This document shows, piece after piece, positions 1 to 10,750 of a stretch of 64,000 nt of DNA. Source of the DNA: Rhodanobacteraceae bacterium (GTDB taxonomy: Bacteria > Acidobacteriota > Terriglobia > Terriglobales > Acidobacteriaceae); the NCBI GenBank assembly GCA_903970285.1, contig CAJCHN010000038.1, positions 1-64,000 of the forward strand, read 5' to 3'. The notes beneath the pieces were generated by a model, which searched no databases, had not been told where the DNA came from, and was given only the letters and a program-made list of their open reading frames with translations. Each line of letters starts with the position of its first letter. Within the stretch, counting starts at the first letter, position 1. The position numbers and the translations under genes were made by a program.

Positions 1-270
1 GAAGGCGGGGGTAAAGCCGGTGGCTTTGATGACGGGAACGTGGCACAGCTCGCACCTCTGGCCGAAGACGGCGTGCGAGGACGAGATGGGGCCAGAGGAA
101 AAGTCGGTATCGCCGCGGGCGATGGTGGTTCCGGCAAACCAGGCGATGGCGCACACGAGAGCGCCGCCGGCGAGATACCACTGCCAGGCGCGAATGGGCG
201 ACTGACGCTTGAAGTAATTCAAGTCGTGGCGGCGGGCGATGAGCTTGGTCGTGCGGTTTCTAATAGACAT
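1..270 (-). CDS. Membrane-anchored c-type cytochrome, N-terminal part (cut by window edge)
   Basis: Only the first 90 residues are visible; the gene continues beyond base 1. A positively charged N-terminus is followed by one hydrophobic segment (about residues 29-50), then a periplasmic part with one CxxCH heme-attachment motif, CELCH at residues 73-77. This resembles the membrane-anchored multiheme or NapC/NrfH-like cytochromes, but the number of hemes cannot be seen. It starts 2 bases after the stop of the upstream membrane-protein gene, so it is probably the fourth gene of the NuoEF/Fe-S operon. A role as periplasmic electron acceptor of that complex is inferred from context only. Confidence 0.8.
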   Translation of the reverse strand, partial: MSIRNRTTKLIARRHDLNYFKRQSPIRAWQWYLAGGALVCAIAWFAGTTIARGDTDFSSGPISSSHAVFGQRCELCHVPVIKATGFTPAF

Positions 271-272
271 CG

Positions 273-1151
273 CTAGTACCTGAGCGCTCCTATCGCGTGG
301 ATGATGGCAAGCAGGATGAGGGCGGCGGAGACGGGAAGGTGGACCAGCAGCCAGGCGTGCAGGAGACGATGAAGACGCGCCTGGTGATCGAGCTGGCGCT
401 TCTCTTCGACGATCTCCTCAATGGCCGAGATCGAAGCCCAGGCGCCTTCGGGAAACTCCCGGCGCAGGTTGTCGAACTGTTGCCGGGAGTACTCGCGATT
501 CTTGAGCGGAGAGTGGTGTCCCTGCTCCTCGTGCAGGTAGGGATCGACGACGGTGGTGAGAAACACCTGGAGCGCCACTGTCTGGGGTTCGAGGTTCTCA
601 ATGTCCAACAGGGTGTCGACCACGGTGGCGCCGGGTCCGGTGGCCGGGGCCAGGCTCTCGGTGACGCTCTTGCTGCGGGTGACTACCTCCGCGGCGAGCT
701 GGGCGCGGATGACCGGGATCTGATCGTAGATGGTTTCGAACGGTACTTCGCGGAACATCCTGGTGGGGATGACGTGTTGCAGCCAGGCGCCGACAATGCC
801 GCTGACCACTACGATGATGGTGAGCCAGAGCAGTACGAAGGCGAGCGCTCCACGAGCGTGGAAGGCGGCGTGAAAGAGCACCATGGGCAGGGCGAGGAAG
901 CCGAGCCAGAGGTGCGCCTTCATCCAGATGCGGGTACGTCCGATGCGCCATATGGGGAAGCGCTTACGGATGCTGAGGGCGGCGGCGAAGAGCATCAGGC
1001 CAAGCGCCAGGCTGCCGAAGGTGAGGCCGATGGCCGTTCCACCGCCCGGCTGAGGCGTGTAGTGGGCGTAGAGCGCGAAGATGCAGGCCCCCACGGCGGT
1101 AGCGGCTACGGTGAAGATCAACCACGGCTTGTGAGTTTCATCGATGCGCAT
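273..1151 (-). CDS. Polytopic membrane protein, probable b-type cytochrome subunit of redox complex
   Basis: This 292-residue protein has about five hydrophobic segments: one near residues 9-30, one near 38-62, two in the middle and one at the C-terminus, with a soluble loop of about 130 residues before the last helix. Histidines lie in or beside the membrane segments (AHLWLGF, FHAAFHARG, LLHAWLLVH, IIHAIG), a pattern expected of a di-heme cytochrome b or ferric-reductase-like electron carrier; heme binding is inferred. The ATG at 1149-1151 overlaps the stop of the Fe-S/cNMP protein gene by one base (TAATG). It likely anchors the complex and passes electrons to quinone or to the cytochrome encoded next. 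Confidence 0.75.
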   Translation of the reverse strand: MRIDETHKPWLIFTVAATAVGACIFALYAHYTPQPGGGTAIGLTFGSLALGLMLFAAALSIRKRFPIWRIGRTRIWMKAHLWLGFLALPMVLFHAAFHARGALAFVLLWLTIIVVVSGIVGAWLQHVIPTRMFREVPFETIYDQIPVIRAQLAAEVVTRSKSVTESLAPATGPGATVVDTLLDIENLEPQTVALQVFLTTVVDPYLHEEQGHHSPLKNREYSRQQFDNLRREFPEGAWASISAIEEIVEEKRQLDHQARLHRLLHAWLLVHLPVSAALILLAIIHAIGALRY

Positions 1152-3403
1152 TAGCGATTCTTGCCGACGAACGCGGCCTCCCCATCGAGATCGACTCCCA
1201 GAACATTGGCAAAGAACTCGTTCGGCTTGACTCGGTGCGCGGCGTCGTGCGGGCAGGCGTAGACGCAACTGGGTTCGGCGAGATCGTGGCAGAGGTCGCA
1301 AGAGGTGGCTTTGCGCACCTTGCCGGTGTTGCTGGCGTCCTTGTCGGTCTGCACGGACTGCAGCGCGGTGGCGTTGCCGGAGCTGTCGAACTCGTGCACG
1401 GTGATGTTGCCGTAGGGGCAGTTGGAGGCGCACAGTCCGCACCCGACGCACCAGTCTTCAATGATGACTTCAAGCGAGTTGCGGCGGCGAATGGAGCCGA
1501 CCGGGCAGCCGATCATGCAGCGTGGGTCGCGGCATTGGCGGCAGGAGGTGGCGACGAGATAGTTTTCGAAGCGGACGCCGTCGCGCAGCAGGCGGGTGAC
1601 GCCATCATGGGCCTCGGCGCAGGCTTTGACGCACTGGTCGCAGCGGGTGCACTTTTCCAGATCGAGGACGAGCAGGCTCTGCGCTTCCATCAGGCCCTGC
1701 TCGAGGAACTGGCCGAGCGGAGCATTTTCGGCGGCCAGCGAGCGGCGGGTCTGGGCGAGATTGTTTTCGCGGGCGCGCTGCTCCGCCATGCGCATGATGT
1801 TTGTGCGCACGTAGGGGTAGCGGTCGAGCATCTCGTGGAAGTCGGGGGCGAGGATGCGAACCACCTCAACGTGATCGAGTGCGACGCAGGTGGCCGTGCG
1901 GACGCCGCCCTGAAGCAGACCCATCTCGCCGAAGTAGCCTCCACGCGGCAGGTAGGCAAGGACCATCTCGTCGCGGCCGCGCTTCTGAGAGACTTTGACA
2001 AAGCCGATGCGGACGAGGAAGAACGCGTCCGCGGGCTCACCTTCTTCGCAGATGACCTGGCCGGGTGCGAAGCGCATCAGGTCGACGCGGTCGCGCAGAT
2101 GATCCACGAAGTCTTCGTCGATCTCGGCGAAGATGGGCACGCTGCGCAGATGAGTGCCCAGCGCGCGCCCGCGGTAGTTGGTCTCGAGCTGCGCCCGGAA
2201 GGTCTTGTTCTTCTGCATCACGTCGAGGACGTTGCGCAGCATCTCGAGCACGATGACGCGGGTCTTCGCGCGCACCGTGGCGGAGCGCGGATAGAAGCTC
2301 ATGCAGGTCATCTCGCCGAAGAGGTCGCCGGGATGAAGCTGCGCGATCGGGTTGTCGTAGGGCAGGTCGACCGGAGCGTCGATGCGGATGTGGGATGGGG
2401 TGGCGCGCTCTTCTTCGCGCGGCTGCTGGGTCTTGGGGCGGAGCAGGCTCACCATCTTGGTGAAGAGGCCGGGTTCGGCGGCCTGGGTGGCGACGTGCTC
2501 GCGCGGGCTGCCGATGTAGACGTCAACGGTGCCGTCGATCATGTAGAAGGCGGTGGATCCGTTTTCGCCTTCGCGGACGATGATCTCGCCGGGCTCGAAG
2601 ATGCGCTTGACCACTGAGCCCGAGTTGAGCTCGAGGAAGGTGCCGGACACGCCCTTGAAGACAGGCAGCGCAAGCAGTTCCTCGGTTTCGACGGAGTAGA
2701 CGTTCGGAGTGTTCTCCGGATACAGACGGCCGGAGCCGAGCGCCTTCTTGTTGGTGAGCGCGCCCGTGGGACAGGAGACCATGCACTCGCCACAGGTGAC
2801 GCAGGTGGAGTTGCCCATGGGCTGGTTGTCGTCAAAGGCGATGGTGGTGAAATATCCCTTGCCCTGGCGGGCGATGACGTAGTTATGGCGGATCTCGGCG
2901 CATCCGCGGATACAGCGATCGCAGAGGATGCAGGCGGAGAAGTCGACGTGGATGGCGGGCGACGAGTCGTCCGGGGCAAGCACGGGAACGGCGCGCTTGA
3001 GGAAGCGAACGTCGTGGACGCCGGCGGCGGCAGCCTGATTTTCGAGCTCGCAGTCGCCGCTCTGCTGTTGGCGGATGCATGGCGACGGGTGGTCGGTGAG
3101 CATGAGCTCGTAGAGCGTCTTGCGGGTGTTGAGGATGGCCTCGGACTGCGTCTTGACGACCATGCCCGGCTCCGCCTTGAAGATGCAGGCGGCCAAGGGC
3201 GGGCGCGGGCGGCCATTGGCCTCCGTGACGTCGACCATGCAGATGCGGCATACGGCGACGGGCGTTTGATTCTGCTGATGGCAAAGTACAGGGATAGGAA
3301 TACCCGCCAGGCGGGCGGCATCGAAGATGGTGGTTCCGTGCGGGACGGAGACCTCCTGGCCGTCGATGGTGAGCGTCATCAACTCGTTGGGGTCGTGGCT
3401 CAT
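1151..3403 (-). CDS. Multidomain iron-sulfur protein: NuoG-like N-terminus, two cyclic-nucleotide-binding domains, HybA/DmsB-like C-terminus
   Basis: The 750 residues hold several modules in order. A [2Fe-2S] domain has Cys41, 52, 55 and 73. A NuoG-type His-Cys region has His105, Cys109 and Cys118 but Gln112 where the family has Cys. Two [4Fe-4S] sites follow (Cys158/161/164/168 and 201/204/207/211). Two cNMP-binding domains lie at about 247-395 and 423-530, each with a phosphate-binding cassette (FGE at 362 and 491, Arg373 and Arg502). A four-cluster ferredoxin region spans 585-717. The gene overlaps NuoEF by ATGA, so it should receive electrons from its FMN subunit. Domain identities are clear; the physiological acceptor and cAMP/cGMP control are inference. 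Confidence 0.88.
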   Translation of the reverse strand: MSHDPNELMTLTIDGQEVSVPHGTTIFDAARLAGIPIPVLCHQQNQTPVAVCRICMVDVTEANGRPRPPLAACIFKAEPGMVVKTQSEAILNTRKTLYELMLTDHPSPCIRQQQSGDCELENQAAAAGVHDVRFLKRAVPVLAPDDSSPAIHVDFSACILCDRCIRGCAEIRHNYVIARQGKGYFTTIAFDDNQPMGNSTCVTCGECMVSCPTGALTNKKALGSGRLYPENTPNVYSVETEELLALPVFKGVSGTFLELNSGSVVKRIFEPGEIIVREGENGSTAFYMIDGTVDVYIGSPREHVATQAAEPGLFTKMVSLLRPKTQQPREEERATPSHIRIDAPVDLPYDNPIAQLHPGDLFGEMTCMSFYPRSATVRAKTRVIVLEMLRNVLDVMQKNKTFRAQLETNYRGRALGTHLRSVPIFAEIDEDFVDHLRDRVDLMRFAPGQVICEEGEPADAFFLVRIGFVKVSQKRGRDEMVLAYLPRGGYFGEMGLLQGGVRTATCVALDHVEVVRILAPDFHEMLDRYPYVRTNIMRMAEQRARENNLAQTRRSLAAENAPLGQFLEQGLMEAQSLLVLDLEKCTRCDQCVKACAEAHDGVTRLLRDGVRFENYLVATSCRQCRDPRCMIGCPVGSIRRRNSLEVIIEDWCVGCGLCASNCPYGNITVHEFDSSGNATALQSVQTDKDASNTGKVRKATSCDLCHDLAEPSCVYACPHDAAHRVKPNEFFANVLGVDLDGEAAFVGKNR

Positions 3404-5160
3404 ACGGTGGCCTTTCCTCCGAAGCAGATGCCGGCGCGGCAGAAGCGATCTTCGAGATGCTCTTTCATAATGTCGGGGAAGTGTTTCATCACCGACTCGA
3501 TGGGTGCGGGAGCGATCTGCCCGAGCCCGCAGATCGAGGCCACTTTGAGCACCTGGGACAGGTCGTTGAGCATGGCCATATCCCCCTTACCCACGTTGCC
3601 GCGGGTCCAGGCTTCCAGCAGATCGACCAGTTTTTGCGTGCCGATGCGGCAGGGCGAGCACTTGCCGCAGGACTCATTGCGATAGAAACGGACAGCGGTG
3701 AGGGCCATGTCGAGCATGCAGGCGGTATCATCGCACACTACCACCGCACCCGACCCCAGCATGGAGCCAAGTTTCTTAACCTTGTCCCAGTCGAGCGCGG
3801 TGTCGAGCATGGAGGCGGGCAGATATCCCGAGGATGGGCCCGAGGGCGCGAAGCCGATGATCTCGCGTCCCGGCGGCGGCCCGCCGGCATACTGCGGCGA
3901 GTAGATGAGCTCGGCGTAGCTGGTTCCCATGGGAACCTCGAAGACGCCCGGACTCACGACGTTACCCGTGACGCCGACGAACTTGATGCCGGGCGATCCG
4001 GGCAGACCGACGTTATGATACCAATCCGGTCCTTTTCCAAGGATGGTGACGGCGAAGGCAAAAGTCTCAACGTTGTTGAGAGCGGTTGGGCATCCCCAGA
4101 GCCCGACGTTGACCGTACGAAAAACTTTGTTGCGGGGCTCGGAGCGATTCCCCTGGATAGCCTCCATGAGGGCGGTCTCTTCGCCGCAGACGTAGCCGCC
4201 GGGGCTGATGAAGACCTCCATGTCGAAGTCGAAGCCGGAACCGAGGATGTTCTTGCCGAGCAGGCCAAGCGCACGGATGCGATCAAGCTCTTCGTTGAGG
4301 ATGTCGGCCTGAAGCTCGTATTCGTGGCGGATGTAGAGGTAGCCGCGCTGAGCGCCGACGATGATGCCCGCGATCATCATCCCCTCGAACACCATGTGGG
4401 CGAGGTACTGCAGGATGAAGCGGTCCTTGATGGTGCCGGGCTCGCTTTCATCGGCGTTGCAGACGACGTATTTTTCCGTGCCCGGCGATTTCTTTGCGCC
4501 GTCCCACTTGATGTACGTCGGGAAGCCGGCGCCGCCCATGCCACGCAACTCGCCGAGTTTCAGGATCGCCAGGGCTTCGTCGAGGTTCTTCTCCTTGATG
4601 AGTTCGCGGAAGATGCCATAGCGGCTCTGCTCGTCGGGGTAGGGGTCGCACTGGATGGTCATGCCGCGCTGGCTGGCGCTGCGGGGCGGCTTGCTGTGCG
4701 GATGGTCGGGGTGTCCGTTGGGGTCGGCGACGGCGATCTCATGATCGATGATCTGGGTCGCGGCAGCCAGCGAGGTGGCTTCGTAATAACGATCGTTGAC
4801 GGTGACGACGGGGGCGTGGTCGCAGCGGCCAACGCAGGAGATGTCGCGGATGCGGACCACATTGGGAAGGTGCGCGTACTTGTTCTCGAGCATGGCCTTG
4901 AGGCCGTGCGCCTGGTGCAGATGGCAGGTCATGTCGTCGCATACGCGGACATCGACCGGAACCGGAGGTTTAAGACGGAAATGGGGATAAAAGCTCGCTA
5001 CCGTATGAACGTCGCGGACGTGAACATTGCGGCGGGCGGCAATGGTCTCGATCTCTTTGGCGGAGACGAAGCCATGCAGGTCCTGAACGTGGCGCAGGTC
5101 CTCGAAGACACCGGTGGGGTGAAGTGGAACCTCGGGTACGGGCGGATGCAGAACGCTCAT
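3400..5160 (-). CDS. NuoE-NuoF fusion: NADH-oxidising flavoprotein subunit
   Basis: This 586-residue protein joins a NuoE-like part and a NuoF-like part. The NuoE part has [2Fe-2S] ligands Cys74, 79, 109 and 113. The NuoF part, from about residue 170, has GMGGAGFP at 207-214 and CNADESEPGT at 234-243 for FMN/NADH, GGYVCGEETAL at 321-331, and [4Fe-4S] ligands in ESCGKCSPC (498, 501, 504) plus Cys544. It should oxidise NADH and pass electrons to the Fe-S protein encoded immediately downstream. No NuoG catalytic domain, hydrogenase or formate dehydrogenase gene is next to it, so it is not ordinary complex I. The start ATG at 5158-5160 has an AAGG-type ribosome site upstream. Confidence 0.9.
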   Translation of the reverse strand: MSVLHPPVPEVPLHPTGVFEDLRHVQDLHGFVSAKEIETIAARRNVHVRDVHTVASFYPHFRLKPPVPVDVRVCDDMTCHLHQAHGLKAMLENKYAHLPNVVRIRDISCVGRCDHAPVVTVNDRYYEATSLAAATQIIDHEIAVADPNGHPDHPHSKPPRSASQRGMTIQCDPYPDEQSRYGIFRELIKEKNLDEALAILKLGELRGMGGAGFPTYIKWDGAKKSPGTEKYVVCNADESEPGTIKDRFILQYLAHMVFEGMMIAGIIVGAQRGYLYIRHEYELQADILNEELDRIRALGLLGKNILGSGFDFDMEVFISPGGYVCGEETALMEAIQGNRSEPRNKVFRTVNVGLWGCPTALNNVETFAFAVTILGKGPDWYHNVGLPGSPGIKFVGVTGNVVSPGVFEVPMGTSYAELIYSPQYAGGPPPGREIIGFAPSGPSSGYLPASMLDTALDWDKVKKLGSMLGSGAVVVCDDTACMLDMALTAVRFYRNESCGKCSPCRIGTQKLVDLLEAWTRGNVGKGDMAMLNDLSQVLKVASICGLGQIAPAPIESVMKHFPDIMKEHLEDRFCRAGICFGGKATV

Positions 5161-5260
5161 CGCTTAGACACCTTCAGAATTTGCCTGGGGAACTCTTGCA
5201 ACACTGTACAACGGGATGGCGAAATACGGTGGAGTGACTTCAACGAATTTGTTTGGTAAA

Positions 5261-5286
5261 AACACGCCGTTGCATTCCGGCGTGTT
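5261..5286. promoter_or_regulatory. Perfect 9-bp inverted repeat between divergent redox genes
   Basis: AACACGCCG at 5261-5269 and its exact complement CGGCGTGTT at 5278-5286 flank an 8-base loop. The right part overlaps the spacer of the predicted plus-strand promoter of the cytochrome gene. Read on the minus strand the hairpin is followed by a short T run (5256-5260), so it could be an operator shared by both genes or an attenuator in the NuoEF leader. The symmetry is seen; the function is inferred. Confidence 0.5.
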
Positions 5287-5298
5287 GCAGAATATAAA
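5270..5298 (+). promoter_or_regulatory. Predicted sigma70-type promoter of the pentaheme cytochrome gene
   Basis: TTGCAT at 5270-5275 and TATAAA at 5293-5298 are separated by 17 bases, and the cytochrome start lies about 40 bases downstream. The assignment rests on motif match only. Confidence 0.5.
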
Positions 5299-5339
5299 CG
5301 CTGCCAGACAAGAAACGAAAATATTTGGGAGGCACGGCG

Positions 5340-6713
5340 TTGGTCTCGACACGGAAGCGGATGAGCTGCGGCTATCTTTTTCTCGCCTTGCTGGCGAGTT
5401 GCGGTTGGGCTTCGGGTCAAACGCCATCGGATGCGCATGTGCACGAGCTGCTGCGTGTTGCGTCGGCGCCCGATGTCCCGGCTATCACGGGCAAGTACGT
5501 GGGTGCCGGATCGTGCAGCGCGAGTGCGTGTCACGGCGGCATTGCGCCGCGGAACACCACCAAGGTGCTGCAGAACGAGTACAGCACGTGGATCACGTCG
5601 GACAAACATGCCCACGCCTATACGGCGCTGACGGAACCCCTGGGACGGCAGATGGGCGTGATCCTGAAGCTTGATCCCACTAAAGCGCAGCGCTGCCTGG
5701 TGTGCCACGCTGTGAGCGTTCCCGAAGCAGAACAGGCGCGTCAGTTCGATATCGCCGACGGGGTGAGCTGCGAGAGCTGCCATGGAGCTTCGTCGCAGTG
5801 GATCGGGCCGCACATCCAGCCGACGGCGCAACATCAGAAGATGGTGGCTCTCGGCCTGATCGACAACAAGAACCTCTCCATTCGATCGGAAAAATGCCTG
5901 ACCTGCCATCTCGGCGCGCCGGGCTTGAACGTCGATCACGAACTGATTGCGGCGGGTCACCCGGACCTGACGTTCGAGCTGGACTCCTTTACCGCTGTGG
6001 AACCGCCGCACTGGGTCGAGAAGGGACCGAATGGCGGCCCGGCCGATCCCCTGTATGGCGTGCGGGCCTGGGCGGTGGGGCAGGCGGTGCAGCTGCAGCA
6101 GAGCATGCTGCGGGTGGCGCGTCATGCCAAGACCGGACCGTGGCCGGAGTTCAGCGAGATGGATTGCATGACCTGCCATCACGCGTTGACCGGACCGCAA
6201 AGCTGGCGCCAGCAGGAAGGCTACAAGGGCCATCGGCCGGGCGATCCGCCGTATAACCTTTCGCGCTACGTGCTGTTCAAGCATTTCGCGGCGGAGGTGA
6301 ATCCAGGATTGAACGATCAACTGGCGGCGCAGGCGGATAAGGTAGCGGCGCTGGTGACGAGCATGAGCCCGGACCGGGCGGCGGTGGAAGCTGCGGCCAC
6401 GCGCGCAGCAGATCTGGCGGGCGAGATGATCGCGCAGGTGCGGGACGCGAGCTACGACCAGGCGCGCACGCAGCGCCTGTTGCGGGCGATCTCAAGCGAC
6501 GCCGACATGATTGCCTACGACGGCGAACGCACCGCGGAGCAGGCGACCATGACCGTGGATTCGCTCTATATCGCCGAGGCGAAGGCGGGCAGTTCCAACG
6601 CGGCCACGCGCCAGGCGATCGACGGTCTGTTCAAGCTGGTGAACAATCCTTCGGCGTATAACGGTCCGATGTATGCGGCGCAGATGAAGAAGGTGCGCAG
6701 CACGCTGCAGTAG
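5340..6713 (+). CDS. Exported pentaheme cytochrome c (cytochrome c554-like)
   Basis: The 457-residue protein has a signal peptide (basic start, hydrophobic YLFLALLAS, end near residue 26) and five heme sites: an unusual CX4CH (Cys59-His65) and four CxxCH motifs at residues 119, 144, 186 and 276. Extra histidines between them could be distal ligands. The C-terminal third has no heme motif and looks helical. I chose the TTG at 5340 because GGGAGG at 5327-5332 lies 7 bases before it; the ATG at 5361 would cut into the signal peptide. It is divergent from the NADH redox operon and may be the periplasmic partner of that complex, which is inference. Confidence 0.85.
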   Translation: MVSTRKRMSCGYLFLALLASCGWASGQTPSDAHVHELLRVASAPDVPAITGKYVGAGSCSASACHGGIAPRNTTKVLQNEYSTWITSDKHAHAYTALTEPLGRQMGVILKLDPTKAQRCLVCHAVSVPEAEQARQFDIADGVSCESCHGASSQWIGPHIQPTAQHQKMVALGLIDNKNLSIRSEKCLTCHLGAPGLNVDHELIAAGHPDLTFELDSFTAVEPPHWVEKGPNGGPADPLYGVRAWAVGQAVQLQQSMLRVARHAKTGPWPEFSEMDCMTCHHALTGPQSWRQQEGYKGHRPGDPPYNLSRYVLFKHFAAEVNPGLNDQLAAQADKVAALVTSMSPDRAAVEAAATRAADLAGEMIAQVRDASYDQARTQRLLRAISSDADMIAYDGERTAEQATMTVDSLYIAEAKAGSSNAATRQAIDGLFKLVNNPSAYNGPMYAAQMKKVRSTLQ

Positions 6714-6893: not shown

Positions 6894-6955
6894 ACGCTCC
6901 GGATGGCGGAAGCCGCGCTCCGGATGGCAGAGCCGCGCTCCGGATGGCGGAAGCT
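6894..6955. repeat. Three tandem copies of a roughly 20-bp GC-rich repeat
   Basis: The unit is close to CGCTCCGGATGGCGGAAGC, repeated three times with small changes, in the 390-bp gap between the convergent cytochrome and HbpS-like genes. Apart from the terminator and this repeat I see no gene in the gap. Confidence 0.7.
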
Positions 6956-7106: not shown

Positions 7107-8735
7107 TTAGTTGGTAGGGTTCTCGGGAAACTTCTGGAACGGCAGCCGGACGCCGCGGATGAAGATCTGGTCGGCGCGGATAGCAGGCGCCGCCATGAAG
7201 CCTGCCGCTCCGCCCGCGGTCGCATAGTCATCCTGATCCACCCCGTCGCCGGAGACGCCCAGACCGCCGGCCAGTTTGCCATTCACGTAGAGCGGAACCG
7301 AACCGGGAAAGAAGACGATGCCGCTTTGGTAGATGCTGGGTGTCTGCGAACCCTGCGTGCAGGGGTTCGCGAGATCCTTCAGGAAGAGCGGGAAAAACGG
7401 GCCGGGAGCGGTTCCGTCGATGCCGCCGGGAAAGAGCGGCTGCCCGCCAAAGTCGATGGTTCGGTTGGTGACGGCGGTATTGGCGGGGACACCGGGCAGG
7501 TCCCCGGTGGCGTTCGGACCGCTCAGGTAGATCACGTTGCGCGACTTGGCGACCGCCACGTCGACCGAAAAGATGGTCGCATCGGGCATGCGGTAGAGCG
7601 CGAGCAACTGCCCGTCAAGGTCCGCGACCGAGATGACGAACCTGGCGCGAACGCCGGGCGGCAGGCGGATGGCGGCGCGGGTCATGTTGCCGGTGGCGAC
7701 CGTGTTCTGCACGATCTGCTGAACCTGTGCGAGCGTCAACCCGTTGGGGAAGCTGGAGCCGTGCTCCTGGATCAGATCGCCTTCCGGAGCAGGTCCGGTG
7801 CTTGCGGTCGGACCCACGGTGAAGGCACCGTCGTCTGCGCCGGCGGCGTACCCGGCTGGCAGCGTGGTCTGGTTGACGAAAGGCAGGGTGATGCCGCCGA
7901 CGACCACGGCGCCCGGAAAGGGAACGATCGGCCCAAACGGTACGCCATTGATGGATCCGATGCCGATGGCACCGGCGACGCCGGCGTACTCCACCACCGC
8001 GTTGTAGTTGGGAGTGGAGGCTGCAGCCACGACGCCCACGCCGCCGGCGACGCGGTTGTTCTTGAAGATGGGGATACCGCCCGGGTTCACCGCGGTGGGA
8101 TCATTGTCGTAAACGTTCGCCTTGCCGGTCTGAATGCCGAGACCGGGACTGTTTGGCGCGTGCAGCAGCCCGCTGGGGGGGAAACTCTGGGCCATGCTGA
8201 GGTATTGGGTGTTGAAGGGGCAGCCGCGGTTGGTGTTTTCAATCCCGTAAAGCGGGGCCGACTCGGTATTCAGGATGCCGGGCGGGAAGTGGATTCCGCT
8301 GATGAAGCGGACGGTGCGCGAACTGAGCGGCGCCTGGTCGTTGGAAAAGAAAGCGGTGGTCCGGGCGAGCGCCGCGGCCTCTTCATCGGCGGGCACAGTG
8401 ATGCCGAAGTTCGACAGTGCAGTGGTCGGTGCGTTGGCCTTGGCGTAGACGCCCAGGATATATCCGCGGCGATCGCTGACCGCGATGACCATCGGAACGT
8501 TGACCGAGGCGGCCGTGGCCAGGATGATCTGCTGCACTTCATTCTGCGTCAGCACATTGTCGGCGGTGTTGGCCGGTACGACCGGAACGGTGTTGGGAAT
8601 CACGCCGTTGCCGCAGCTCACGCAGCTGAAAGCGAGTGTCGCGGCGAACAGCGTGCAGGTCGCGCTGGAGTAAACCCGGCGCGATCCGCTTTGGGAACGG
8701 CCGAAACTTAGCGGGGAAAGAAGCGTAAGTCTCAT
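7107..8735 (-). CDS. Secreted protein with two HbpS/GlcG-like (DUF336) domains
   Basis: The 542-residue protein starts with a basic stretch and hydrophobic segment (about residues 20-42) ending near Cys-Val-Ser-Cys, so it is exported and may be lipid-modified, although the lipobox is not canonical. Two similar halves (about 60-280 and 335-530) each start with a helix like LTQNEVQQII or LTLAQVQQIV and contain patterns such as MVIAVSDRRGYILG and FVISVADLDGQLLALY, typical of the heme-binding HbpS/GlcG family. Each half carries long Gly/Pro-rich loops not usual in the family. Heme or small-ligand binding is a family-level guess. It is transcribed alone, divergent from the cyclase gene. Confidence 0.75.
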   Translation of the reverse strand: MRLTLLSPLSFGRSQSGSRRVYSSATCTLFAATLAFSCVSCGNGVIPNTVPVVPANTADNVLTQNEVQQIILATAASVNVPMVIAVSDRRGYILGVYAKANAPTTALSNFGITVPADEEAAALARTTAFFSNDQAPLSSRTVRFISGIHFPPGILNTESAPLYGIENTNRGCPFNTQYLSMAQSFPPSGLLHAPNSPGLGIQTGKANVYDNDPTAVNPGGIPIFKNNRVAGGVGVVAAASTPNYNAVVEYAGVAGAIGIGSINGVPFGPIVPFPGAVVVGGITLPFVNQTTLPAGYAAGADDGAFTVGPTASTGPAPEGDLIQEHGSSFPNGLTLAQVQQIVQNTVATGNMTRAAIRLPPGVRARFVISVADLDGQLLALYRMPDATIFSVDVAVAKSRNVIYLSGPNATGDLPGVPANTAVTNRTIDFGGQPLFPGGIDGTAPGPFFPLFLKDLANPCTQGSQTPSIYQSGIVFFPGSVPLYVNGKLAGGLGVSGDGVDQDDYATAGGAAGFMAAPAIRADQIFIRGVRLPFQKFPENPTN

Positions 8736-8821
8736 ATGAATCCTGTGCTTCGGTTACGTTGGGGGCCGGCAGGCACGAACAGCCTATCGCAAATGACCCG
8801 CGGATGCTATATCTAATCGCG

Positions 8822-10750
8822 ATGCGATCTTTCCTGAGACGCGCGGGCAAGGGGATTGCGATCGGCTTGATCGCAGTGATCGCGATGATCTTCGCAGAGA
8901 GGTCCACGTCCTTCCAGGACCTCGACCAGCTGGGTTACGATCTGACCGTTGATGATATCGGTCTGAGTTCTCCCTCGCCGGATATCGTGCTGGTGGACTT
9001 CGACGAAGAGACCTTTCAGAGCCAGAAGGTTCGCCAGTACCCGCTCCCCCGCAGCATGTTTACCGACGTCATCCGCCGCGTCAGCGTGGGCAAGCCGCGC
9101 GTGATCGGGCTGGACGTGCTGCTTTCCGAGCCCCGCGATCCGACCGAAGACAAGGAGATGCAGGCAGCGCTGACCGAAGCCGGCAACGTGATCCTGGCCA
9201 GCCAGGCGCCGAACGGAACGCTGCCCTTGACCATGCCTCTGCCGCTGTTCTGTCAGCCCGAGGATCCAACCGCGGCCTCGGGTTTCTGCGTGGAAGGAAA
9301 GCCCGGCGCCGAGGGCTACGGCGCGGTCAATATGCCGATCGACCCGGATGGATTCATCCGCTCAGCCAACCTGTTCATTGCCGGTGCGACTTCATCCGAG
9401 AGCTACCCGCTGCGCATGGCGGAACAGTTTGCGCAGCAAAGCGTGCAGCCGGACGGGCCGGACGCGCTCAGGTTCCTTGGCCATCGGATTCCGTATGCCA
9501 ACAAGGACCTGAAGACCATGCTGATCGGCGTCTGGGGAAGGGAGCCGGCGACCCGGGTTCCGGCCTGGAAGCTGCTTGCGGGAGAGGTGCCGGCAAGCGT
9601 CTTTACCGATAAGCTCGTGCTCATCGGGCAGACCAGCGATGCGTCGCGCGACACCCACTTCACGCCGCTCTTCCGCGTCGCCGGGCCGGATGGTGTGCGC
9701 CTGGAGCTCGGGGGAACGGCCATTCATGCGGCTGCCATCCGCACCCTGCTGGAAGGGCGCGCGGTGACGGTGGCCAGCAAGAATGTGAAGTTCTCCTGCA
9801 TCCTGGTCTGCGCGGCGGCAGCCTCGATGCTGCTGCTCTCGTGCGATCTGAGCATCGGGGTGCTGGGCCTGCTGGGATTGATGGGAACCGTGCTTGGGGG
9901 CTCCCTGCTGATGTTCGCGAAGTGGCGCTTCTGGCTGCCATACCTTCCTATTGAAGAGAGCCTGGCGATCACGCTGCCCATCACCATCAGCATCCGCTTC
10001 CTCGAAGAGCAGCTGTTCCGCAAGCAGGAGAGCAAAGAGCGCGAGCAGATGAAGCGGCTGTTCGGAAGCTACGTGGACAAGAAGGTGGTCGACGTAATCT
10101 GGCAGCGGCGATCGGAGGTGTGCCTGCCAGGCAAGGAGCAGATGGCTACGGTCATGTTTACCGACATCCGCAGCTTCACGGCGATGAGCTCCGGCCAGCC
10201 GGCGGCGGTGGTCTTGAAGTGGCTTAATCGCTATGTGAAAGCCATGGACGAAGTGATCACCGCGCACGGCGGGTTTCTGAACAAGTTCATCGGCGACGGC
10301 CTGATGATTATCTTCGGCCTGCCGCTGGAACATGGAACGCGCGAGGATGCGCGCTCCGCCATGAAGTGCGCGGTGGCCATGCTGGAGCGGGTGGAGAAGC
10401 TCAACGAGCAGGCCGGCGAGAATCCGGACCTGCCGCACCTGCGTATAGGGATTGGGATTCACACCGGAACCCTGGTTGCAGGGAGCATTGGTTCGGCGAG
10501 CCGGCAGGAATATTCTGTCATCGGCGAGACGGTGAACCTCGCCTCGCGCTTAGAAAGCCTGAACAAGAAGTTCGGAACAGAGATCGTGATGAGCGCCGCG
10601 ACTATGGAACTGGTGGAGGAGTTTTTCCCGGAGATTGAGCCCCTGGGCGCGACTCCGGTGGCTGGTTTGAAGGATCCCGTGCCAGTCTTCACGCTGCGGG
10701 TTGGCGTGGGTGCGGTCAAGCAGGTTACAGAATCAGGAGCGATGCGATGA
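8822..10750 (+). CDS. CHASE2-domain class III adenylate/guanylate cyclase
   Basis: The 642-residue membrane enzyme has an N-terminal helix (about 12-26), an extracytoplasmic CHASE2 sensor (about 30-310), three membrane helices (about 320-395) and a cytoplasmic cyclase domain from about 430. The domain has VMFTDIRSFTAMS with the metal Asp, NKFIGDG with the second metal Asp and the purine-selecting Lys, and VIGETVNLASRLE with the transition-state Asn and Arg. These residues indicate an active enzyme making cAMP (cGMP not excluded). The start ATG at 8822 gives a good N-terminal helix; an in-frame ATG at 8804 is possible. It overlaps the next gene by ATGA. Confidence 0.88.
   Translation: MRSFLRRAGKGIAIGLIAVIAMIFAERSTSFQDLDQLGYDLTVDDIGLSSPSPDIVLVDFDEETFQSQKVRQYPLPRSMFTDVIRRVSVGKPRVIGLDVLLSEPRDPTEDKEMQAALTEAGNVILASQAPNGTLPLTMPLPLFCQPEDPTAASGFCVEGKPGAEGYGAVNMPIDPDGFIRSANLFIAGATSSESYPLRMAEQFAQQSVQPDGPDALRFLGHRIPYANKDLKTMLIGVWGREPATRVPAWKLLAGEVPASVFTDKLVLIGQTSDASRDTHFTPLFRVAGPDGVRLELGGTAIHAAAIRTLLEGRAVTVASKNVKFSCILVCAAAASMLLLSCDLSIGVLGLLGLMGTVLGGSLLMFAKWRFWLPYLPIEESLAITLPITISIRFLEEQLFRKQESKEREQMKRLFGSYVDKKVVDVIWQRRSEVCLPGKEQMATVMFTDIRSFTAMSSGQPAAVVLKWLNRYVKAMDEVITAHGGFLNKFIGDGLMIIFGLPLEHGTREDARSAMKCAVAMLERVEKLNEQAGENPDLPHLRIGIGIHTGTLVAGSIGSASRQEYSVIGETVNLASRLESLNKKFGTEIVMSAATMELVEEFFPEIEPLGATPVAGLKDPVPVFTLRVGVGAVKQVTESGAMR

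Follow-up and report, generated by a model that had tools for sequence, protein, structure and literature searches.

A conserved gene cluster joining NuoEF, cyclic-nucleotide-binding Fe-S and multiheme cytochrome proteins: a candidate NADH-fed electron-export chain of Acidobacteriota and other soil phyla

The window analysed here (64,000 nucleotides, positions 1-64000 at the start of contig C38) opens inside a cytochrome c gene, position 1 being the end of the contig. Four genes on the minus strand overlap or nearly abut one another. They encode a 586-residue NuoE-NuoF fusion of the HoxF/HydB type (NuoEF, 3400..5160), a 750-residue protein with both Fe-S and cyclic-nucleotide-binding (CNB) domains, termed CNB-FeS, which is the defining subunit (1151..3403), a 292-residue membrane protein (273..1151), and a membrane-anchored cytochrome c, of which the first 90 residues precede the contig end (1..270). 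A pentaheme cytochrome gene diverges from them on the plus strand (5325..6713), with a c554-like and probably exported product (PF13435, 4.8e-10). The NuoEF stop and CNB-FeS start share ATGA, the CNB-FeS stop and membrane-protein start share TAATG, and a gap of 2 nt separates the membrane-protein gene from the cytochrome c gene. A first-pass annotation of this DNA had described the same five genes, with NuoEF and CNB-FeS translationally coupled; all five lie where it placed them, Pfam recognises domains in NuoEF, CNB-FeS, and the pentaheme cytochrome, and the ATGA overlap bears out the coupling. Linked to the cluster are a gene for a GlcG/HbpS-like putative lipoprotein (7107..8735, minus strand; PF03928, 2.8e-18), whose family, F6, is a frequent neighbour found at 30 loci including this one, and a gene for a CHASE2-class III nucleotide cyclase (8759..10750, plus strand; PF05226 and PF00211), two genes away from the CNB-FeS cluster.

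The NuoEF fusion contains PF01257, PF01512, SLBB, and PF10589 domains, matches the NCBIfam model nuoF_fam at 8.6e-118 and HydB/HoxF in the PDB at about 2e-104, and carries an NADH/FMN site together with an N1a-type [2Fe-2S] and an N3-type [4Fe-4S] cluster, whose ligands (Cys 74/79/109/113 and 498/501/504/544) are invariant in 66-70 sequences. In CNB-FeS, Pfam recovers Fer2_4, NADH-G_4Fe-4S_3, and Fer4, then cNMP_binding in the middle of the protein (2e-36), and finally terminal Fer4 repeats, which is the order of NuoG-like start, two cNMP-binding domains, and HybA-like end reported previously. The N-terminal NuoG/HoxU/HydA-like module (2744..3382, minus strand; FeFe_hydrog_A6 2e-58, HoxU 1e-46, with PDB matches) retains the ligands of one [2Fe-2S] cluster (C41, C52, C55, C73) and of two [4Fe-4S] clusters (C158-168 and C201-211) in 70/70 long forms, the full-length variant of the protein; L077, a short form, is outside this count. 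Its N5-type site is incomplete, with H105, C109, and C118 kept in 70/70 long forms but the middle Cys in 0/70. The C-terminal HydN/HybA/DsrO-like domain (1199..1684, minus strand), assigned from family matches, has four [4Fe-4S] sites formed by 16 Cys that are 96-100% conserved. With the exception of that middle N5 Cys, the features of a diaphorase (HoxEFU/NuoEF) module are all present, namely the NuoE [2Fe-2S] ligands, the NuoF FMN, NADH, and N3 sites, and the HoxU/NuoG-N ligands. For the chain suggested earlier, from NADH through FMN, Fe-S clusters, and heme b to heme c, the required ligands are retained, apart from a single N5-type Cys that is absent throughout.

The CNB-FeS locus does not have the make-up of respiratory complex I. 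In the Pfam scan, CNB-FeS lacks the molybdopterin-fold domain PF00384, unlike the NuoG encoded on contig C80, and no further Nuo family was detected among seven proteins of the window or ten neighbour representatives. A separate complex I is encoded on C80, where NuoG (with PF00384) lies beside NuoD, E, F, and H, which rules out that the NuoEF fusion is the genome's only copy and serves complex I.

Between the two Fe-S regions of CNB-FeS lie CNB domain 1 (approximately residues 245-395; 2219..2671, minus strand), with the phosphate-binding cassette FGEMTCM..YPRSAT, and CNB domain 2 (approximately residues 415-545; 1769..2161, minus strand), with the cassette FGE..LL...RTATC. Both have the Glu and Arg that typify a cyclic-nucleotide receptor of this fold: E364 and R373 of domain 1 occur in 81/81 sequences, and E493 and R502 of domain 2 in 80/81 and 79/81, respectively. 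Judged by these residues, both cassettes look functional. A class III cyclase is encoded within about 10 kb of the locus in 16 of 32 genomes, compared with 0.43 expected under random placement (about 37-fold), an expectation that serves as a guide and carries no significance level since these 32 of the 80 loci were mostly picked for long contigs and are related to one another. Of the 12 genomes that encode just one class III cyclase, 10 have it within about 12.6 kb of the locus, and the linkage takes at least four arrangements. Searching with the window's own cyclase by tblastn gave no match in 59 of the 80 loci, many of them truncated by contig ends. The cyclase of this genome has motifs that we take, presuming their usual meaning, to be of the adenylate-cyclase type. 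We infer that cAMP or cGMP may control the electron path, for which the cyclase linkage offers independent support.

The membrane protein has five hydrophobic segments, with an N-in orientation predicted by the positive-inside rule, and contains two His pairs, H80/H94 and H271/H285, each 14 residues apart. The earlier description of a His-rich membrane protein is made more specific: five transmembrane helices with four His invariant in 61 sequences. In an AlphaFold model (pLDDT 87), the His pairs lie on two helices, which suggests that the protein binds two b hemes and is a transmembrane diheme cytochrome b. Comparison by known families was less informative, with no Pfam match above cut-off for the window's protein, nothing below 0.1 in alignment against PDB sequences, and no Foldseek hit at 0.001 with the model. 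Fold comparison placed STEAP1, b561, NOX5, and b6f at Z 6.8-7.8, ranked below unrelated helical bundles.

The anchored cytochrome (family F1) looks small here because the contig end cuts its gene. The membrane cytochrome c of the first-pass annotation is indeed present at 1-270, as an N-terminus, and relatives that continue beyond this point are decaheme, so that a small cytochrome c is ruled out. Counting CX2CH and CX3-4CH motifs together, 66 of the 72 F1 ORFs have ten; of the other six, five, among them the ORF at the start of the window, are truncated by a gap or the end of a contig, and one (L011) has nine. The five heme motifs of the pentaheme cytochrome are invariant in 66-69 sequences, and its gene is not adjacent to NuoEF in every locus. 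In many relatives, the decaheme gene is followed by genes for an outer-membrane beta-barrel (F7) and a decaheme/LVIVD cytochrome of about 1,250 residues (F5). In this genome, the barrel and F5 stand at the end of another contig, and contig C3 probably continues C38. The model of F7 shows 18 strands that are at least ten residues long, with AlgE as the best PDB fold (Foldseek, 4e-14) and no match to NCBIfam models at 0.001; it adjoins F5, so that a barrel is encoded together with multiheme cytochromes as in porin-cytochrome systems. Ten hemes are found in 26/27 F5 ORFs of 1,180 residues or more, and neither F5 nor F1 matched the PDB at 0.01. None of the matches listed for LVIVD in the open-licence literature was a cytochrome paper. 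Across 297 sampled genomes of the host phylum, F5 occurs in 11/13 genomes with CNB-FeS and in 22/284 genomes where CNB-FeS was not found at 1e-100 (Fisher 4e-10, relatedness ignored); the two carriers without F5 are G047 and G319, the latter 75% complete. Where F5 is missing from the locus itself, 20/21 genomes encode it elsewhere.

The same set of genes has been kept together in Acidobacteriota, Rokubacteria, and Methylomirabilota. Long-form CNB-FeS genes were accompanied by NuoEF in 64/64, by the membrane protein in 66/69, and by the decaheme cytochrome in 63/66 loci, where loci with insufficient flank were dropped, a match anywhere in the locus region was counted, and the long group takes in two loci (L059 and L075) that are contig-cut across the form-defining part. 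The misses are three Planctomycetota, which have NuoEF and CNB-FeS without detectable membrane partners. The conserved neighbourhood of the five proteins that the first-pass annotation had named as a check thus exists, the same genes recurring together in nearly all related loci with room for them, far in excess of chance. Long-form homologues of the Fe-S protein are not consistently found apart from NuoEF and cytochrome genes, and the companion counts rule out unrelated partners for CNB-FeS, the three Planctomycetota excepted. In one Rokubacteria locus (L060), eight genes form a single divergent block, and the named strain Granulicella aggregans M8UP14 (L009) also has the locus. Short-form relatives, which lack both NuoEF and the NuoG/HoxU-like start, still have CNB-FeS, the membrane protein, and the decaheme cytochrome, which suggests that these three are the core and that the NADH module is an added input. 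A quick tree with long-branch warnings, for which we chose seven divergent short forms as the root, would, if that root is right, place the core first, with the NADH arm either added and later lost or else acquired repeatedly.

Based on these observations, we propose, with a probability of roughly 0.58, that the locus encodes a quinone-independent NADH-to-surface electron-export chain across the inner membrane, gated by a cyclic nucleotide. NADH would give up its electrons to the FMN of NuoEF. The N3/N1b-type clusters would relay them, together with two ferredoxin-type clusters in the HoxU-like start; the four clusters in the HybA-like end would follow, and a pair of stacked b hemes inside the five-helix membrane protein would then receive the electrons. 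The membrane-anchored periplasmic decaheme cytochrome would be the next acceptor, from which the pentaheme cytochrome could carry electrons to the outer-membrane barrel and the 1,250-residue decaheme/LVIVD cytochrome, with Fe(III)/humics, an electrode-like partner, or an oxyanion as the possible final extracellular acceptor. The two CNB domains, placed between the NADH-side and exit clusters, may alter the distance or docking of the modules upon binding cAMP (or cGMP) from the neighbouring CHASE2-cyclase. Because outward flow from NADH would conserve no energy and would spend membrane potential, the chain would serve either as a redox overflow or as low-yield respiration and would need a switch. 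The oxidoreductase originally suggested stands in so far as its parts form one conserved unit; the extension of many loci to the barrel and large decaheme cytochrome makes the product likely to be an electron-export conduit instead of a free-standing oxidoreductase.

The gating part of this proposal competes with the somewhat unlikely alternative that the CNB domains serve a structural purpose or recognise some different ligand, with the signal of the linked cyclase going to CNB proteins elsewhere in the cell. CNB folds of other families do bind other ligands, and the genome encodes five other CNB proteins above the Pfam cut-off, which the cyclase may serve instead; the retention of the Arg/Glu cassettes in nearly all sequences, together with the strong cyclase linkage in at least four arrangements, argues against it. 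The membrane protein might alternatively be a diheme protein with a quinone site, making the complex an NADH:menaquinone oxidoreductase or a menaquinol:cytochrome c oxidoreductase, in which b and multiheme c parts like those of a split CbcL carry attached NADH and Fe-S modules. This reading, which draws on the Ni_hydr_CYTB matches of 6/61 membrane proteins (best 2.2e-6), appears unlikely, as the proposed path from clusters through heme b to heme c is already complete without quinone. To our knowledge, a cytoplasmic NADH/Fe-S arm is also foreign to quinol-linked entry families of the CymA/CbcL type. NADH occurs nowhere in the text of PMC6295460.

A dedicated detoxifying or terminal reductase, for instance of selenite/tellurite or nitrogen oxides, is an improbable substitute for general electron export. 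The idea gains from the c554-like character of the pentaheme cytochrome and from the similarity of F5, over about 270 residues (2.1e-29 for this genome's copy), to ExtM of the Geobacter selenite/tellurite cluster, yet the best NCBIfam ExtM scores (102-103 bits) fall far under the cut-off of 800, and F5 does not qualify as ExtM/N/O at equivalog level. The same parts could also work in both directions, and according to the available portions of PMC6295460, homologues of CymA and CbcL/MtrH/MtoC occur in Fe(II) oxidisers as well. However, reduction of NAD+ by an extracellular or periplasmic donor, as a lithotrophic supply of reducing power, seems very improbable, since a donor lying above NADH in potential would have to send electrons inward uphill, with the membrane potential opposing them, and no coupling element was recognised in the gene set.

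If the NADH-fed export chain operates as proposed, it would represent a type of entry different from the known inner-membrane families, established or proposed to be quinone-linked, and an outlet for reducing power in several soil phyla. In Shewanella, cAMP controls the mtr genes via CRP, i.e., at transcription, as described in the available portions of PMC4468914; a gating CNB domain inside an electron carrier would make control immediate and testable in vitro. Since the locus occurs in Granulicella aggregans M8UP14, the proposal is testable in a named strain. The modular history, if the rooting holds, would illustrate how respiratory complexes swap inputs. Tentatively, and at somewhat less than even odds, the locus may encode the first known trans-envelope NADH oxidase under direct control of a second messenger. 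Such an oxidase would give electrons a quinone-free route through the inner membrane into extracellular electron transfer, and cAMP made by a CHASE2-cyclase dedicated to it would open or close that route inside the protein. It would be common to Acidobacteriota, Rokubacteria, and Methylomirabilota, with a short form in Planctomycetota.

Among the matches listed from the open-licence literature, judged by title and the opening of the abstract, no counterpart is described, in agreement with the earlier statement that no named complex is known with this make-up, and a search there for a CNB domain together with multiheme found no paper. The diaphorase modules HoxEFU and NuoEFG-N of bidirectional [NiFe] and [FeFe] hydrogenases and NAD-dependent formate dehydrogenases share the NuoEF fusion, the HoxU-like start, and the FMN and cluster ligands. 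In the present proteins, by contrast, Pfam finds neither a hydrogenase nor a formate dehydrogenase domain, one N5 Cys is absent, and the HoxU-like part continues into two CNB domains and a HybA-like end with four clusters. NADPH oxidases, ferric reductases, and STEAP proteins carry two His pairs on two helices and move electrons outward from cytoplasmic pyridine nucleotide; the membrane protein resembles them in its His pairs and proposed direction, but without a Pfam match over cut-off or a PDB match below 0.1. HybA, DsrO, NrfC, and QrcC modules likewise set a four-cluster Fe-S protein beside an integral membrane subunit and a multiheme cytochrome. Their Fe-S subunits are mostly exported, whereas CNB-FeS, given its NADH-side and CNB modules, is taken as cytoplasmic. 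Porin-cytochrome conduits and the Geobacter extHIJKLMNOPQS genes also combine an outer-membrane barrel with multiheme cytochromes of pentaheme, decaheme, and larger size. A Rieske/cytochrome b pair belongs to ext, and the available portions of PMC5877670 name no NADH or CNB part for it. As far as the available portions of PMC6295460 describe them, CymA, CbcL/MtrH/MtoC, and ImcH likewise pass electrons from the inner membrane to multiheme cytochromes, and CbcL joins a multiheme c to a membrane domain, whereas here b and c are encoded as two distinct proteins. These systems are quinol-linked or proposed to be so, while the feed of the present chain would be a cytoplasmic NADH/Fe-S arm.

The window opens contig C38 of a source genome of 4.13 Mb in 151 contigs, so no sequence precedes base 1. 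On the minus strand, the transcription order is a NuoE-NuoF fusion (NuoEF, 5160-3400), a 750-residue Fe-S protein (3403-1151), a 292-residue membrane protein (1151-273), and a cytochrome c of which the first 90 residues are present (270-1), with a c554-like pentaheme cytochrome diverging on the plus strand (5325-6713). Adjacent genes overlap at their stop and start codons, within ATGA for NuoEF and the Fe-S gene and within TAATG for the Fe-S and membrane-protein genes, and a 2-nt gap separates the membrane-protein gene from the cytochrome c gene. The domain labels of the first-pass annotation are borne out by Pfam and NCBIfam for NuoEF, the Fe-S protein, and the pentaheme cytochrome, but for the membrane protein the sole match, to DUF4405, falls below threshold, and the fragment of cytochrome c has no Pfam or NCBIfam match. 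At its start, the Fe-S protein is nearest to [FeFe]-hydrogenase A6 and HoxU, its middle contains two cyclic-nucleotide-binding (CNB) domains, and its end resembles four-cluster proteins of the HydN/HybA/DsrO type. About three imperfect tandem copies of 20-21 bp (6895-6954) lie between the pentaheme gene and a gene for a GlcG/HbpS-like putative lipoprotein (7107-8735, minus strand), whose family occurs near the locus in 30 loci including the window.

Scanning GTDB genomes with the Fe-S protein returned 98 related stretches, and 80 loci from Acidobacteriota, Rokubacteria, Methylomirabilota, and Planctomycetota were retained from these. The recurrent set comprises NuoEF, the CNB-containing Fe-S protein, the membrane protein, and the cytochrome c, together with the opposite-strand pentaheme. 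Partners were counted in loci with enough contig room, a match anywhere in the locus stretch being accepted. Among long forms, which carry the NuoG/HoxU-like start, NuoEF was found in 64/64, the membrane protein in 66/69 (a total including L059 and L075, whose form is masked by truncation at the contig end), the decaheme in 63/66, and the pentaheme in 58/62. Wherever both occur, the distance between the end of NuoEF and the Fe-S match is at most about 320 nt; in L024, L035, L047, L060, and L079, the pentaheme is several kb distant. The misses are three Planctomycetota loci (L065, L066, and L068), in which the NuoEF/Fe-S pair is present and no membrane protein or decaheme was detected within the locus; the pentaheme is also missing in L030. 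A named strain, Granulicella aggregans M8UP14, is among the carriers of the locus.

Cofactor ligands are highly conserved, with one exception. Cysteines 74/79/109/113 of NuoE and 498/501/504/544 of NuoF are invariant or nearly so (66-70 sequences), and the same holds for all five pentaheme motifs (66-69 sequences). Long forms of the Fe-S protein carry Cys 41/52/55/73, 158-168, and 201-211 in 70/70 cases, and the sixteen C-terminal cysteines are kept in 96-100% of 80-81 sequences. An unusual conserved loss affects residues 105-118 of this protein (gene 1151-3403): its N5-type site retains His105, Cys109, and Cys118, whereas the middle cysteine is found in 0/70 long forms, being replaced by Gln (59), Glu (8), or His (3), unlike the complete HxxxCxxCxxxxxC of the genome's own NuoG.

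Across 61 sequences, the membrane protein has four invariant histidines, 80/94 and 271/285, spaced 14 apart within each pair and located on two helices of a confident predicted model (pLDDT 87). The protein has five hydrophobic segments, and by the positive-inside rule its large loop is cytoplasmic; this arrangement would suit a transmembrane stack of two b hemes. Fold searches did not confirm membership of a heme-b family, and weak Pfam matches at 0.05 among the 61 proteins were to DUF4405 (18), Ferric_reduct (10), and Ni_hydr_CYTB (6).

Two further genes follow the decaheme gene in many loci. They encode F5, a decaheme cytochrome of about 1,250 residues with LVIVD propeller repeats (Pfam), and F7, which has a CarboxypepD_reg start and, in most, an aromatic C-terminal residue. 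The AlphaFold model of F7 (pLDDT 72) has 18 strands of at least 10 residues, with AlgE as top Foldseek PDB match (4e-14), and F7 is thus a predicted outer-membrane barrel. Among the 51 long-form loci whose contigs extend 8.5 kb downstream, 30 contain F5 and 26 F7. In the source genome, both are terminal on contig C3 (C3:3-6173), which, judging from gene order, should abut C38 with the gap inside the decaheme gene; in M8UP14 they are likewise on a different contig. The Rokubacteria locus L060 holds eight genes in a single divergent block (the HbpS-like gene, pentaheme, F5, and F7 against NuoEF, Fe-S protein, b-type candidate, and decaheme). F5 is carried elsewhere by 20/21 genomes that lack it in the locus, a few matches having in-frame stops, and in a 297-genome sample of the phylum 11 of the 13 genomes that encode the Fe-S protein also have F5 (the exceptions being G047 and G319, the latter 75% complete) versus 22/284 of those that do not.

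A short form, in which the Fe-S match begins only at the CNB domains, accounts for 8/80 loci (L070, L072, L073, L076, L077, L078, L080, and L081). Where there is room, NuoEF is missing in 5/5 of these, and the membrane protein (8/8), decaheme (5/5), and pentaheme (5/5) are present. The 13 carriers in the 297-genome sample (E 1e-100) comprise three long and ten short forms, several of the latter very divergent; all ten short forms adjoin a decaheme-matching cytochrome with 9 or 10 CXXCH motifs, and the membrane protein was seen in nine, the tenth (L106) being represented by its two best labels only. At the same threshold, the Fe-S protein was found in 0/14 other sampled species of the window's genus, and its distribution is patchy. 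In a quick tree of the region common to both forms, with the root placed by us on seven divergent short forms, L070, L072, and L073 form a starred short clade nested among long forms, and four changes are required, at least two of them forced by starred branches. These patterns suggest a core of Fe-S protein, membrane protein, and decaheme, with the NADH arm as an accessory input that has been either secondarily lost or acquired repeatedly.

The phosphate-binding cassettes retain their Glu and Arg residues in the first CNB domain (E364/R373, 81/81) and the second (E493, 80/81; R502, 79/81). A CHASE2-class III cyclase, with catalytic motifs consistent with an adenylate cyclase, is encoded at 8759-10750 and is one of three class III matches in the source genome. 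The 32 genomes examined, drawn from the 80 loci mostly for long contigs, have a median of two such cyclases. In 16 of them a cyclase lies inside the locus, taken as about 10 kb on each side, versus 0.43 by random placement (14 placed; L068 and L079 added from tblastn); allowing a further 2.6 kb raises this to 20, versus 0.53. The sole cyclase falls within the wider bound in 10/12 single-cyclase genomes. Depending on the group, the cyclase gene is located upstream, immediately behind the decaheme gene, or past F5/F7, so the linkage does not reflect one inherited arrangement, although the rows are related. Against exclusive pairing, the source genome has five other CNB proteins above cut-off, and tblastn with the window's cyclase found none in 59/80 loci. 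In L022, L029, L032, L037, and L058, a CHASE2-cyclase-family gene follows the decaheme gene and precedes a FecR-domain family (L029 copies scanned), and a pyridine-nucleotide-disulphide-oxidoreductase-like flavoprotein adjoins the pentaheme gene.

In the simplest chain, electrons would pass from NADH through FMN, N3, a [2Fe-2S], two [4Fe-4S], and four [4Fe-4S] clusters to two hemes b, and then via the decaheme and the pentaheme/outer conduit to the outside. They would thereby move from the negative to the positive side while NADH's protons remain inside, so the path itself would conserve no energy. A redox outlet that can be switched would be consistent with this, and a gate formed by the CNB domains, lying between the clusters of entry and exit, would answer the need to close it. 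Alternatively, the chain may be quinone-linked or run in reverse, the CNB domains may be non-sensory, or the unit may act as an oxyanion reductase. The NADH conduit gated by a second messenger is the bolder reading, to which we give a probability of roughly 0.4.

No description of this gene combination was found among the papers listed by searches of open-licence literature. Multiheme cytochromes or porin-cytochrome clusters have been reported in Acidobacteria, and the available excerpts of those reports do not mention a unit of NuoEF and the CNB-containing Fe-S protein (PMC8100337, PMC7399161). In Shewanella, mtr transcription needs cAMP/CRP and adenylate cyclase (PMC4468914). The middle of F5 matches Geobacter ExtM (2.1e-29 for the source-genome copy), far below the equivalog cut-off. 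For extHIJKL, a supporting role in the reduction of Fe(III)/Mn(IV) is reported (PMC6148476), and the Geobacter ext cluster shares the barrel and multiheme cytochromes with the present loci but differs in its Rieske/b pair (PMC5877670).
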